Source of the DNA: Paenibacillus zeirhizosphaerae
GTDB lineage: Bacteria > Bacillota > Bacilli > Paenibacillales > Paenibacillaceae
Direction: 5' to 3'
Assembly: GCF_030705605.1 (NCBI RefSeq)
Contig: NZ_JAPCKK010000016.1
Coordinates: 1-64,000 of the forward strand
DNA: 64,000 nucleotides
Below the pieces are notes generated by a model. It ran no database searches. It saw only the letters and a list, made by a program, of their open reading frames with translations, and was not told the origin of the DNA. Position numbers and translations under genes: made by a program. Positions 28,213 through 57,347 of this stretch are shown piece by piece. Positions within the stretch are counted from its first letter, which is position 1, and each line of letters begins with the position of its first letter.

Positions 28213-28836
28213 TTATTTGTCGTGCAGCATGGATCTTTTCAGAAATTGAAACACTTCAGTTTGCGATTGTTCGCGTGTAATGTCCTGGTCGCGTCCGATG
28301 AAAAAGCGCTCGGCTGCGTTTTCCACCAGATTGATCACCAATTTACTCGTCCAGGCAATGTTCAGATCTGCAATGACCTCCTTGTTGTCCATGGCCTGCA
28401 GCATTTCATCCTCGAACCACTCGTAATAAGGCTTGTAGATCGTTTCCCAGATTTCCATCGAATGATCGATAGCCAACCCGGAATAGACGAGTACAATGAC
28501 ATCCTTATATTCATCTGTGATGTTGTATATTTCCTCGATAAAAATCCGTAGAAACTCCGAAAAATCCTTGCGGCTCTTGGTTTTGTCCTTGACCTTCTCC
28601 ATCGTAATGGAAATCAGGTTCTGTGCGATTGCCGGAATTAAGGCATTTTTCGAACGGAAATACAAATAAAACGTTCCCTGCGCAACCCCCGCTCGCTTGA
28701 CGATATCCGAGATGGACGTGCTGTGCAGTCCTTTTTCCGAGATGATCTCAATGGCAGCCTGCAGAATCGCATTGTATTTATCATGTACTATTGTAGTTGA
28801 CAACGACTTGCCCTCCAATGACTGAATATCATTCAT
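28213..28836 (-). CDS. TetR/AcrR family regulator
   Basis: The 207-aa protein has the TetR DNA-binding helix-turn-helix TSISDIVKRAGVAQGTFYLYF (about residues 36-56) and a helical ligand domain with DEYKDVIVLVYSGLAIDHS. The chosen ATG at 28836 follows AGGAAATGG. It is transcribed in the same direction as the polyamine operon and ends about 120 bp before patA, with palindromes between. It is therefore the likely regulator of that operon, possibly sensing a polyamine. Confidence 0.85.
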   Translation of the reverse strand: MNDIQSLEGKSLSTTIVHDKYNAILQAAIEIISEKGLHSTSISDIVKRAGVAQGTFYLYFRSKNALIPAIAQNLISITMEKVKDKTKSRKDFSEFLRIFIEEIYNITDEYKDVIVLVYSGLAIDHSMEIWETIYKPYYEWFEDEMLQAMDNKEVIADLNIAWTSKLVINLVENAAERFFIGRDQDITREQSQTEVFQFLKRSMLHDK

Positions 28837-29364
28837 TTTCCATTTCCTGTGCTCTACTTTATCGTATCTGCTGGGGCAAAGCAACCTCATACTGTGGTTT
28901 GTCAATGTTAAATTTCAATGCCGGCTAGTGAATATAACTCAACTTTCGCAGAGCCCAAATCCAATTAAACCTTTGTAGCTACTTGGTTCGGAGGAATTCG
29001 AATCCCCTTCTTGCAAGTTTGCCGATTTCATGCTGCAAAAGTTAAGGCTTGACAGTCAAGCCACCCGTCGATCGTGGCAAGGCATGTGAACTCGCTGTCC
29101 GGGGGCTTTGCACAATTATCCCGTTGGATCAGGTAAATCAGGTAAAGAGAAACAGAAAACCGGGAACCGAACATATACTTTAGGCACGTTAAAGAAAATA
29201 ACGGATCCAATGAGGCACGAAAATGTCTGTGGTTACGCGATTCAGGGCCATTGAATGGGTCTATTATTTTTGGATGTGCCTTATGGAGAAGCAGATCGGT
29301 TCGAAATCATGAGGCGATCTTAGGAGAAAGCAGAGCGTTTAGGTGATGTGAAACTAACCGAGAG

Positions 29365-30592
29365 AGGAGGAGGAGGAGCAAGGCACCGAAAAAATAAAAG
29401 ACCCGTGTCGTTGCCGCTTGAACCCGAATGCTTCCGCTTTCCTCGTTCATGCTAACCCACACCGTTCAAGCAACGCACCTCATGCTCACCTTTCCTCGTT
29501 CAAGCACTGCGATCAGGCCACAGCCGCAAGAGGCTGATCCGTTTGGCGTGCGATCATCCGACGGTAGGTAATCGCCGGAATCGCCACACCGATGTACAGT
29601 AACTTCTGCTGCATCGTTCCTTCTGCTCCGGACAGGTGCAGTCGGCGGCGTCCAGTATACTCGTTGAGGTACGCCTGCAGATGCTTTGGTCCCAAAGCTA
29701 CATACGTACTCTTCAGCGATTCCCACGCCTCTCTCACCACTTTCCGCAAGGGCGTATACAGCCGATAGGCTTGAGGGAACGATTGTACCGCCGATGTACG
29801 AATATCTACCTGTTCATGGATGAACGCAGCGAGTTCGTGACGATTCGCTCCGTTCCCCTCTCCCCTCATCTGGGGGACCAGGCGGATTTTGACCTGCTCC
29901 AGCTCGCCCGACTCCGTGACCGTGCACCCGGCTACGACCGCCGAAGCATGCGGATGAGGAAACTGTGGCCGGGACAGATTACGCCCATACAGGTCGCTGT
30001 TCACCTTCACGTCTCCGCAGAGCAGCTCCCGGGCATCGAACTCCCCGATGGCATGGCGTATTTTGTGCAGCATCAACCAGGCGGTCTTGTAGGTGACCTG
30101 GATCACCTGGCTCAGCCGCATCGCCGAGATGCCGTCGGGCAGCAGGAACAATTCCAGCGCCTGGAACCACTTGGTCAGAGGGAGATGGGTTCGTTCAAAA
30201 ATCGTGCCGACCAAAGCCGACGTTTGATGCGCACAACTGGCGCATTCGAACATGGGGATGCGCCGGGAAGTCAGACGACTGCAGCGGGTATGAGCGCAAC
30301 GCGGGCAGACGAAGCCGTTCGGCCACTTCATCGCGATCAATGCCTCCATGCAGGCCTGCTCGTTGGGGTAACGACTGCTAAAGGATTGAAGTTCTGTTTC
30401 CACTTGGACTTCCATGTCTGCTCGCCCCCGAATCAACAAAATAAGAACATAAGTTCTTTTTCTCATTATACCAAACGTATGTTCCTGTTTCAAGCCGAAC
30501 TTCCCACTTGAGCCACCTTTTTTCGTATCACGTTTCTCTTTCCTCTTTCCTTCCCCCAGGCCCCCTCAAGCCCCAACCCTCGACCCCCGCAT
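29365..30592. mobile_element. Transposase-bearing segment absent from the sister element
   Basis: Comparison with 56679-57340 shows this segment between GAGAG (29360-29364) and TCTGATCAAAAGGG (from 30593). It begins with repeated AGG units (29365-29376). I found no clear terminal inverted repeats or target duplication at its own ends. It is either a nested insertion or the core of the parental element that the shorter copy lost. Confidence 0.65.
29513..30415 (-). CDS. IS1595-family-like transposase, catalytic residues doubtful
   Basis: The 300-aa protein starts with a zinc ribbon (Cys37, Cys40, Cys58, Cys61) as in IS1595/ISXO2-type transposases. It then has the helical DNA-binding-like region LPLTKWFQALELFLLPDGISAMRLSQ and YKTAWLMLHKIRHAIGEF. 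The usual DDE region is altered: I see GDVKVNSDLYG where VDETYVGG is expected, and TSAVQSFPQAY where TDGWxAY is expected. The start at 30415 follows GGGGGCGAG. It occupies the middle of the larger transposon copy. It may be inactive, a divergent subgroup, or the source of the transposon. Confidence 0.75.
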   Translation of the reverse strand: MEVQVETELQSFSSRYPNEQACMEALIAMKWPNGFVCPRCAHTRCSRLTSRRIPMFECASCAHQTSALVGTIFERTHLPLTKWFQALELFLLPDGISAMRLSQVIQVTYKTAWLMLHKIRHAIGEFDARELLCGDVKVNSDLYGRNLSRPQFPHPHASAVVAGCTVTESGELEQVKIRLVPQMRGEGNGANRHELAAFIHEQVDIRTSAVQSFPQAYRLYTPLRKVVREAWESLKSTYVALGPKHLQAYLNEYTGRRRLHLSGAEGTMQQKLLYIGVAIPAITYRRMIARQTDQPLAAVA

Positions 30593-30874
30593 TCTGATCA
30601 AAAGGGATAATCATGCAAAGCTGTATGGGAAGGCAGCAAGCAGCAGGCATTAGGCATTAGGAATTAGGCAACGGACACCAGACACCACTCCCTATAGACA
30701 CCTATCTCACTCTGGTTACTAGACTTTGAGGGGGGCGAATCCCCTTCTTGCAAGAAAGCTAGCAAAAAAACTGTCTGCTTTGATTCAGCGTCAACCCAGC
30801 AGTAGATCTCCGTTTTACACCGTTATATCAGGGCCTGTTTGCCGATTTCATGCTGCGAAAGTTGAGAATATAAG

Positions 30875-31226: not shown

Positions 31227-31877
31227 TTACAGGTGTAAAATTCCCCGTTCCAAAGAAACTGCCACCGCTTCCGAGCGAGAGTCAACACCCAATTTGTTAT
31301 AGATATTGGTGAGATGAGCCTTGACGGTCCTTTCCGAGATCCCCAGATCAAAGGCGATTTCCTTGCTTCGGCAGCCACGGGCAATCGATTGCAGAACCAA
31401 CATTTCTTTATCCGTAATAAAGGTTTGTTCTCGAACCGGAGCAGAGGGCGTCTCCTTTGTGGCCCTGACCACAAACACTTTTGCCGTAATTTCCGGCTGA
31501 AGCAGTGTTTCCCCGCGCAGTGCGGATTCAAGCGTCCGAAACAGATTTTCCCGGCTTGTATCCTTGAGCAAATATCCTTTCGCCCCCAGTGACAAGCCTT
31601 TTATCATTAAATCATCTTCGTTATAGGTCGTCAGAATAATGACAGGCGTCTCGTTATTTCTTTCTTTCAGCGCCTCCATAGTTTCAAGCCCGCTCATTCC
31701 GGGCATGTTCAAATCCATTAATATGACATTTGGAGCCAGCTCCTCGACTAAACTGAGAGCTGCACGGCCCTCTTCTGCTTCACCGACCACTTCGTATTGG
31801 CTGTCCGTTTCGAGGATTAGCTTTAACCCTTCCCTGACGACCCAGTGGTCATCCACTATTAAAACTTTACATTTCAT
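31227..31877 (-). CDS. NarL/LuxR-type response regulator
   Basis: The 216-aa protein has a receiver domain with the acidic pair VDDH near residue 9, the phospho-acceptor Asp in ILMDLNMPGMSG (about residue 55) and Lys in GYLLKD. A LuxR-type helix-turn-helix ends it (KEIAFDLGISERTVKAHLTNIYNKLGV). It is encoded after the sensor kinase, with an 11-bp overlap. Targets are unknown; no obvious neighbour is controlled by it. Confidence 0.93.
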   Translation of the reverse strand: MKCKVLIVDDHWVVREGLKLILETDSQYEVVGEAEEGRAALSLVEELAPNVILMDLNMPGMSGLETMEALKERNNETPVIILTTYNEDDLMIKGLSLGAKGYLLKDTSRENLFRTLESALRGETLLQPEITAKVFVVRATKETPSAPVREQTFITDKEMLVLQSIARGCRSKEIAFDLGISERTVKAHLTNIYNKLGVDSRSEAVAVSLERGILHL

Positions 31878-33078
31878 AACGAGTCTCCTTCGAAAATGGC
31901 ATTTCTATTTTGAGCGATGTTCCTTCCTGTGCTGAGCTGTGAATGCTAATACTTCCAGCAAGCAACCGCACACGTTCATGTATACCGATCAAGCCATAAT
32001 GGCCTGCTTTTTTGCCGATGGTTTGGATGTTAAATCCTTTTCCGTCATCTCTTATTTCCATGAGCAGCATCTGTTCAACAGTGAGAATACCAATGAATAC
32101 ATTTTTGCTATGAGCATGCTTGGCCACGTTGGTTAAACACTCTCTTACGATGTGCAGTGCATGCTCTGTAACCAGCGTAGATAGTGGTGTTTTTACATCA
32201 AGCTCCAGTTTGACGTGAATGCCTGTAGCCAGGGTAAAACGCTGCGCTTCTTCCCGAACAGCTTCTGTAAAATCGACTTCGGCGGCGGATTTGGATCTGA
32301 GGTCATCAATGGCCCGCCTCGCTTCAGAAAGAGCCCACCTCGACTGGAACATGGACTGTCGCACAATTTCGTGCGCTCTTCTCGTCCCCCCCTTGGTCAA
32401 GTGTGCATCGATGGCTTCCAACTGCATAATAATACCCGCCAGACCCTGAGCAAGCGTATCATGCAGGTCACGAGCCATGCGCTGCCGCTCATTGGCCAGA
32501 GTAAGCTCTTCGACTTTCTGATGTGCCATCTCCAGCTCACGCAGAAAGGTCTGGCTCCGAACCCTTGCATGAACCTGCCTGAAGAAAAGCATTGCATAGG
32601 CAATGACCACAACAACTAACATAATAAAGACTGGCATAAGCAGCCCGATTTTTTCCTCGGTGTGAAACCAGATCAGTGCAGCACAGAACAGGAGATAGAG
32701 AGCCAAGAACAGCACCGTTACTTTAAGTGGCTGATAATAAATACCCACGCTTTGACCAATCAGAACGGGGATCAGGCACACCAGCACTAAAACAAAGCCG
32801 GTAGGCAGAAGAAATGCACTCAAAAAAATGGAAGCCCCTTGCAGTACAAAATATAACCAGGGCTTGAAGCCCACAACCCTATGTGCAAACCAATATAAAC
32901 AGGAATGTGCTGTCATTGTCCCGGTGAATAAAATGCTGTTCAGAAGCATGGGTTCACTCAAGAACTGAAATATCATAACCTCCATATAAATGATGACCAC
33001 CCAAATCAGAATCGGAACCCTGGAAATCGTGATTCTCTCCGATTCATCCAGAATGGCTGTTGTGGTTTTATTACTCAT
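31867..33078 (-). CDS. Sensor histidine kinase (NarX/DesK-like, HisKA_3)
   Basis: The 403-aa membrane kinase has an N-terminal half with about six hydrophobic segments. The dimerisation helix holds the phospho-acceptor His in MARDLHDTLAQGLAG (about residue 207). The HATPase domain shows the N box ECLTNVAKHA and the G box DDGKGF. It partners the response regulator encoded downstream. AGAGGTGAAGG precedes the ATG. The stimulus is probably membrane-related but unknown. Confidence 0.92.
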   Translation of the reverse strand: MSNKTTTAILDESERITISRVPILIWVVIIYMEVMIFQFLSEPMLLNSILFTGTMTAHSCLYWFAHRVVGFKPWLYFVLQGASIFLSAFLLPTGFVLVLVCLIPVLIGQSVGIYYQPLKVTVLFLALYLLFCAALIWFHTEEKIGLLMPVFIMLVVVVIAYAMLFFRQVHARVRSQTFLRELEMAHQKVEELTLANERQRMARDLHDTLAQGLAGIIMQLEAIDAHLTKGGTRRAHEIVRQSMFQSRWALSEARRAIDDLRSKSAAEVDFTEAVREEAQRFTLATGIHVKLELDVKTPLSTLVTEHALHIVRECLTNVAKHAHSKNVFIGILTVEQMLLMEIRDDGKGFNIQTIGKKAGHYGLIGIHERVRLLAGSISIHSSAQEGTSLKIEMPFSKETRYEM

Positions 33079-56671: not shown

Positions 56672-57347
56672 TTTTTAACTCAACTTTCGCAGAGCACAAA
56701 TCCAATTAAACCTTTGTAGCTGCTGGGTTCTGAGGAATTCGAATTCTCTCCTTGCCAGTTTGCCAATTTCATGCTGCGAAAGTTGAGTTAAGTGCTTGAC
56801 AGTCAAGCCGCCCGTTGACTGTGGCGAGGCATGTGAACTCGCTGCCCGGGAGCTTTGCATGATTATCCCGTTGGATCAGGTACATAAAAATAGAAAACCG
56901 GGAACCGAAAATATACGAAGTGAGGCACGAAAATGCCTGTTGTTACGCTATTCGGGATCATCAAATGGGTCTATTATTTTTTTGATCGTACCTTATGGAG
57001 CAACAGATCGGTTCGAGATGAGGCGATCTTAGAAGAAAGCAGAGCGTTTAGGTGATGTGAAACTGATCTGAGAGTCTGAGCAAAAGGGATAATCATGCAA
57101 AGCTGTATGGAGAGACAACAGGCATCAGGTAAAGGACACCAAACGCCATACACCATAACACCATACCCTATAGACACCCGTCTCACTCTGGATGCCAGAC
57201 TCTGAGCGGGACGAATCCCCTTCTTCCAAGAAAGCTAGAAAAAAGCTGTCTGCTGATTCAGAGGCAACTCCAGCAGTGAATCTCCGTTTTGCCCAGTTAC
57301 ATCAAGGCCTGTTTGCTGATTTCATGCTGCGAAAGTTGAGTTTTTAA
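56672..57347. mobile_element. 662-bp transposon-like element, transposase-free copy
   Basis: CTCAACTTTCGCAG starts at 56679 and its complement CTGCGAAAGTTGAG ends at 57340. TTTTTAA flanks both sides (56672-56678, 57341-57347). The interior is colinear with the ends of the element at 28938-30866. A third copy of the right end, CTGCGAAAGTTGAG, lies internally at 56774-56787. It therefore also delimits a 109-bp mini-element (56679-56787) with perfect 14-bp ends. No gene is seen inside. Confidence 0.9.

Follow-up and report, generated by a model that had tools for sequence, protein, structure and literature searches.

We have identified a composite transposable element in the genome of Paenibacillus zeirhizosphaerae, at positions 28938-30866 of the first 64 000 nucleotides of contig NZ_JAPCKK010000016.1 (assembly GCF_030705605.1); this whole stretch is termed the window. 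The element has the ends of ISPepr1, a subgroup of the IS4 family of insertion sequences (IS), and is flanked by a 7-bp target duplication. It contains two blocks derived from ISPepr1-type elements, and no intact ISPepr1 gene. Lodged between the blocks is a nested element of IS1595 type, the cargo, with a gene for a protein of 300 amino acids (aa). Further copies exist in the same genome, including two without the open reading frame (ORF) that have exact 7-bp duplications. We conclude that this is a composite with ISPepr1-type ends and a nested IS1595-type cargo that was likely moved in trans, with a probability of about 0.83 for this reading as a whole; the mover would be an ISPepr1-type enzyme.

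The outer element and its copies

The initial annotation noted perfect 14-bp ends and a duplicated AATATAA, and inspection of the sequence bears out both. The features of the outer element are as follows.

28931-28937, no strand: left target duplication AATATAA (sequence)
28938-28951, + strand: left terminal inverted repeat CTCAACTTTCGCAG, fitting the ISPepr1 end consensus (sequence; PMC2266710, Table 1)
28938-29046, + strand: left block, miniature ISPepr1-type element (alignment to L196)
29033-29046, - strand: internal inverted copy of the end, 2 mismatches (sequence)
30724-30866, + strand: right block, truncated ISPepr1-type miniature element (alignment to L196)
30853-30866, - strand: right terminal inverted repeat, exact reverse complement of the left (sequence)
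30867-30873, no strand: right target duplication AATATAA (sequence)
56679-57340, + strand: second member, ORF-less, with TTTTTAA duplicated (inverted-pair scan, comparison of copies)

The whole window was scanned for pairs of exact 14-bp inverted sequences that are separated by 100-4000 bp and bordered on the outside by an exact 7-bp repeat; two places qualify, 28938-30866 and 56679-57340. The same scan of 100 order-1 Markov sequences of window length returned none, and the combination of ends and repeat is above chance. The second element duplicates TTTTTAA, at 56672-56678 and 57341-57347, and contains an exact inverted copy of the end at 56774-56787, comparable to that at 29033-29046 (2 mismatches) in the first. 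The initial annotation mentions neither this second member nor the internal copies of the end. For the 28938-30866 copy alone a shifted 8-bp duplication could be read, because the end bases coincide. The 56679 copy rules this out (CTTTTTAA on the left, TTTTTAAG on the right), and the length of the duplication is therefore 7 bp.

How common is the element in its own genome? The 4.8-Mb assembly contains 18 occurrences of the 14-mer at up to one mismatch, and none of its reversed control. Copies were found by searching with the cargo protein and with each end, and the stretches retrieved were then compared. Three have the full structure: that in the window, C31:89122-91136 (contig:position) and C11:822279 onward, the last having lost its right end. 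A copy from C29:247912 onward has a damaged left part and no right end, C11:280157-281750 and C11:730.8-732.2 kb are core copies without outer ends, and C16 holds a fragment at the contig edge. Four more are ORF-less (C11:56679, C11:698501, C30:316237 and C33:87455), and all four lack a counterpart of window positions 29365-30592. Both outer ends, with at most one mismatch, are present in five copies. The 7-bp duplication is exact in three of these (AATATAA, TTTTTAA and TTTCTAA) but not in the other two, at C31 and C11:698501. Two of the three copies with exact duplications are ORF-less, and thus the cargo ORF is not needed in cis.

We also searched 75 genomes for an empty site using the left flank, which matched the own genome and four others. 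The best of the four is 67% identical over 485 bp, stopping short of the insertion point, and the remaining three matches are merely 43-53 bp long.

The ends are those of the IS4 subgroup ISPepr1

The initial annotation did not recognize the ends or the 7-bp duplication as those of a standard named family. Both in fact match ISPepr1, for which Table 1 of De Palmenaer et al. 2008 (PMC2266710) gives a length of 1500-1600 bp, ends of the form YT-AA-YTT---A, the YREK signature and direct repeats of 7-8 bp. The window end CTCAACTTTCGCA agrees with every base stated in that consensus, and the 7-bp repeats of the window and 56679 copies fall within the range.

The same ends are found in other Paenibacillus genomes. 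The exact 14-mer is present in 19 of 75 genomes of the genus, the own genome included. Ten elements from elsewhere in the genus were measured, each differing from the rest in end sequence and having both ends at up to two mismatches; they span 403-1505 bp, and the 7-bp duplication is exact in six, has one mismatch in one and two or three mismatches in three. One of them, a 1502-bp element with four copies in genome G059, is intact and encodes a 454-aa protein (L185), the others having shorter frames. With the NCBIfam IS4 model NF049925, whose cut-off is 250, L185 scores 552.6 bits; it also contains YGMRWSIETFFKVTK, in which the YREK signature is exact (Y-2-R-3-E-6-K). Size, ends, signature and 7-bp repeats all agree with ISPepr1.

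The two blocks of the window element can be aligned with L196, an ISPepr1-type element of 1380 bp with an interrupted gene. The left block, 28938-29046, corresponds to 79 bp of one end of L196 (86% identity) followed directly by the terminal 30 bp of the opposite end (93%). The right block, 30724-30866, corresponds to 30 bp of one end (80%) and the last 115 bp (88%), and its last codons read ISCCES* as in L196. By these alignments the left block is a complete miniature element, and the right block a second one minus its outer end. A complete miniature element on the left explains the internal inverted end at 29033-29046.

Between its ends the window element has no intact ISPepr1 YREK gene, the one gene-like ORF being of IS1595 type. 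In the whole assembly the ISPepr1 gene is represented by two pieces only, of 42 and 34 residues when searched with the family model, or 49 and 37 with the L185 protein; movement is therefore likely to have been in trans. The window element shares with the ISPepr1 subgroup its end consensus, an AT-rich 7-bp duplication and blocks derived from such an element, but differs in having no intact transposase gene, an internal third end and foreign cargo. The proposal that this is a new or poorly described element holds in part: it is a genuine transposed unit with a 7-bp duplication and no standard autonomous IS, yet its type of end had already been described.

The mobile insertion cassette MIC231, of IS231 type, has IS4-family ends and a non-transposase cargo, and needs a helper. 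The window element is like MIC231 in having IS4-family ends with such a cargo and in probably needing a helper, and unlike it in that the ends are of ISPepr1 type and the cargo is a mobile element.

Both outer ends, with up to one mismatch, accompany the cargo at 14 of the 57 loci in Paenibacillus oralis and P. macerans; the 7-bp duplication is exact in two of the 14, TTATAA lies on both sides of six, and six have neither. This supports the composite reading less well than the own genome does. No match above the NF049925 cut-off was found in either species. They have several short pieces of ISPepr1 gene, about 400 bp or less from a cargo gene, as well as further IS4-like genes, whose frames run to 411-412 aa and whose scores are 43-46 bits.

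The nested IS1595-type element

The features of the cargo are as follows.

29047-29062, no strand: GCTTGACAGTCAAGCC, subterminal remnant of the nested IS1595-type element, its outermost bases lost (comparison of copies)
29105-29132, + strand: inner inverted motif, left copy GCTTTGCACAATTATCCCGTTGGATCAG (motif comparison)
29513-30415, - strand: 300-aa IS1595-type zinc-ribbon protein (PF12760) with no visible DDE triad (profile search, alignment)
30445-30456, - strand: predicted LexA-type box 2, GAACTTATGTTC (promoter scan; consensus from PMC4551915)
30465-30470, - strand: predicted -10 element TATAAT (promoter scan)
30473-30484, - strand: predicted LexA-type box 1, GAACATACGTTT, between -35 and -10 (promoter scan)
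30488-30493, - strand: predicted -35 element TTGAAA (promoter scan)
30594-30622, - strand: inner inverted motif, right copy, CTGATCAAAAGGGATAATCATGCAAAGCT on the + strand (motif comparison)

Relatives of the cargo gene are encoded by 186 stretches in Paenibacillus. Counts of loci given here use the best 80, a choice that favours intact ones; these represent few Paenibacillus species, so that they cannot be counted as independent. Among the matches listed, the nearest named relatives are all from Paenibacillus.

The cargo has outer ends of its own. In P. oralis and P. macerans one end reads GGCTCAACCTAATAATCAGTGCTTGACAGTCAAGCC and the opposite one GGCTCAA-ACCAAAATCAGTGCTTGA. Eleven pairs of such ends picked by eye in relatives have an 8-bp duplication that is exact in six, has one mismatch in two and is without a match in three. 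One of the exact six, the P. oralis locus L102, is an ORF-carrying cargo copy of 1618 bp that starts with GGCTCAA and has ATTTTTTT on both sides. In more distant species 23 cargo loci were examined, and none has an IS4 end at two mismatches or fewer. The copies at C31, C11:822279 and C29 of the own genome retain a degraded first end of the cargo element; in the window copy GCTTGACAGTCAAGCC is all that is left of it. Scanning for inner duplications at fixed offsets gave nothing consistent, because the flanks carry indels.

The IS1595 family provides a comparison in ISApl4 (IS1016 group), which PMC12561309 describes as 712 bp long with the catalytic motifs DES, VYTD and HINGIEN. The cargo relatives share with it A/T-rich 8-bp duplications and ends that start with GG, and the cargo protein has the PF12760 domain. 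The cargo element and its protein differ from ISApl4 as described there in lacking DES, VYTD and HINGIEN, in length (1618 bp for L102) and in falling below the cut-off of the IS1595 model NF033547. Among six genomes searched with this model one has a match above cut-off, and it is neither P. oralis nor P. macerans; this sole match, at G093:C12:36635-37270 in P. rubinfantis, is a possible helper.

The cargo protein and its promoter

The cargo protein matches PF12760, the IS1595-type zinc ribbon, at 45.6 bits (cut-off 25.4). Its match to NF033547, 62.1 bits, lies under the cut-off of 75 and covers positions 1-65 of 215. We aligned it with 67 relatives drawn from the best 120 of 901 and the best 120 of 989 proteins. 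At the first catalytic position the 68 sequences have N in 55, H in six, S in three and other non-acidic residues in four, and none has an acid. In the two other catalytic regions acids occur in at most 24 and 19 of the 68, with none conserved. The DDE-type triad thus appears to be absent from these proteins. A Foldseek comparison with the PDB gave no match at E up to 0.001. A longer form of 326 aa, starting at a TTG at 30493, was considered; it is unlikely because that start overlaps the predicted promoter, and most close relatives among the matches listed are of about 300 aa.

Upstream of the gene lies a GAAC-N4-GTTC box, to be compared with the Bacillus subtilis LexA consensus CGAAC(n)4GTTCG given in PMC4551915. 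Among 80 upstream regions (the window and 79 loci, L152 being left out) it is exact in 44 and within one mismatch in all 80, against 0.3 and 4.7 in simple letter shuffles, which ignore the kinship of the loci. A GAAC-type box lies between -35 and -10 in 79 of 80 regions, the spacer is 17 in 70, and a second box follows the -10 in 77; the promoter scan searched for the box, and so gives its presence and spacing rather than its discovery. Box 1 ends GTTT, rather than GTTC, in nearly all regions. We therefore predict that the cargo gene would be under SOS (LexA) control. LexA control of a transposase promoter is described for ISCR elements in PMC13393415; the arrangement predicted here is similar, while the enzyme family and the host group differ.

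Paired inner motifs

The gene lies between two inverted copies of a short motif. Allowing one mismatch, P. oralis has 149 copies of GGGATAATSRTGCAAAG, P. macerans 161 and the own genome 22; three more species have 38, 52 and 87 occurrences and two other genomes of the genus 1 and 0, and the reversed control is absent from all eight genomes. Among the places listed, many form inverted pairs, about 1.3-1.5 kb apart with the cargo gene or 50 to 600 bp apart without it. Both inner motifs are found at 76 of the 80 loci, and the two copies at a locus resemble each other: there are 53 left-right mismatches over the 76 loci against a shuffled mean of 73.5 (0 of 2000 shuffles as low), and 24 against 38.5 over 19 distant loci (1 of 2000), again by shuffles that ignore kinship. 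In L142 and L146 the region downstream of the gene has direct repeats of the inner motif, or of a sequence close to it, within about 50 bp.

This arrangement resembles that of the REP-associated tyrosine transposases (RAYTs), which are associated with repetitive extragenic palindromic (REP) sequences and their doublets (REPINs). PMC2817692 and PMC3116915 describe genes between inverted REPs, co-evolution of the two, fast evolution of the gene and REP doublets in high copy number. Here too the gene stands between two inverted short motifs whose copies co-vary, it evolves faster than its neighbours, and the motif exceeds 100 copies in two genomes, with inverted doublets. In contrast to the system described there, the protein is an IS1595-like zinc-ribbon protein and not a tyrosine enzyme of the IS200/IS605 type, and several motif doublets are parts of larger units, which have ends of their own and 8-bp duplications. 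These two differences limit the likeness to one of working, not of identity: by analogy, the cargo gene and its motifs resemble a RAYT/REP system built on another transposase family.

Another reading is that the short motif pairs are simply miniature derivatives of the IS1595-type element, and that the protein is an active transposase whose catalytic site is of a non-standard kind. Units of this size that are bounded by GGTTCAACC/GGCTCAA ends and have an exact 8-bp duplication do occur in P. oralis and P. macerans (L223, L224, L228, L235 and L238), two species in which, as noted above, the NF033547 search finds no match above cut-off. Yet acidic residues are not conserved where the fold would need them, and a helper that has been lost or was not sequenced accounts for the 8-bp duplications equally well. 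We consider an active enzyme of this kind unlikely, if deserving of attention.

Constraint and persistence of the cargo gene

The reading frame is open over >85% of the matched gene at 78 of the 80 loci. The median ratio of nonsynonymous to synonymous substitution rates (dN/dS) is 0.295 among 28 P. oralis copies and 0.247 among 27 from P. macerans, and the corresponding pooled ratio for polymorphisms between nearest neighbours (pN/pS) is 0.34 and 0.25, respectively. To judge from these ratios the gene is under constraint.

Five groups of loci from the more distant species share a chromosomal place. Four have both flanks 80-91% identical; for the fifth, L137/L152, just one flank is visible. Three of the four have a gene that is 73-84% identical and short islands of 88-94% that cover the inner motif, the rest of the spacer being unaligned; the fourth (L142/L146/L153) aligns over a longer stretch. 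Across 11 same-place pairs dN/dS is about 0.09 to 0.20. Gene and motif have thus been kept at the same sites between species.

These data bear on the idea that the outer element is a plain ISPepr1-type miniature element whose cargo is functionless debris picked up by accident, with a gene intact merely through the youth of the copies. ORF-less versions exist, and some parts of the flanks between cargo and ends have decayed, as that idea would have it. It is nevertheless improbable: the frame is open at nearly all of the best 80 of 186 loci (a set favouring intact ones), the pN/pS of nearest neighbours is low, the promoter boxes are conserved, and gene and motif persist at one site across species while most of the spacer is lost.

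Neighbouring sequences

The window element sits between a gene for a TetR-type regulator (28213-28905) and a response regulator/histidine kinase pair (31227-33078), the families being judged by eye. At 30640-30695, and at the same place in copies L067 and L068, there are 7-bp tandem arrays with units near GGCATTA and GACACCA, the number differing by copy. In P. oralis and P. macerans the same place is occupied in many copies by 8-bp units such as GTGTCTTG.

Origin and significance

A single autonomous IS1595-family element with odd ends, its 300-aa protein being a transposase that recognizes CTCAACTTTCGCAG, is highly improbable and we reject it. In its favour, the IS1595-type gene is the largest between the ends, and the two parts frequently occur together in P. 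oralis and P. macerans, neither of which has an ISPepr1-type gene scoring above the cut-off. Against it, the ends belong to another family and are flanked by that family's remnants, the L102 gene lies inside GGCTCAA ends with an 8-bp duplication, 23 of 23 distant loci are without an IS4 end at up to two mismatches, and ORF-less copies have moved too.

The composite reading suggests the following history. Two ISPepr1-type miniature elements would have come to flank an IS1595-type element, the right-hand one losing its outer end. The composite would then have been cut and pasted in trans by an ISPepr1-type transposase, of which none is intact in the own assembly. The cargo protein is predicted to bind DNA through its zinc ribbon, the probable site being the paired inner motif or its vicinity, and to have lost or replaced the classical DDE chemistry; it would be made once LexA is cleaved after DNA damage.

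A broader proposal is possible, and we put it forward tentatively. Paenibacillus may possess a domesticated, DDE-less descendant of an IS1595 transposase, under SOS control and present at many sites, that acts on its own paired 17-bp motifs. It would be an independent system of the REP/RAYT type, spread partly inside ISPepr1-type carriers. A literature search by titles and abstract openings, with most subscription journals outside its reach, found no description of such a system among the papers listed.

The outer element is nothing out of the ordinary: a carrier with IS4 ends of a known type that does not encode an enzyme for itself. Naming it correctly removes a false 'new family'. The unusual part is the cargo gene. 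Its protein appears to have lost the usual active site, yet the gene has dozens of conserved copies, fixed sites between species, some 150 inverted motifs in each of P. oralis and P. macerans, and a LexA-like promoter. If the protein does act on the motifs, then unrelated enzymes would have given rise to RAYT/REP-like systems on more than one occasion, and the role of domesticated transposases in their hosts would become testable in a Gram-positive genus.
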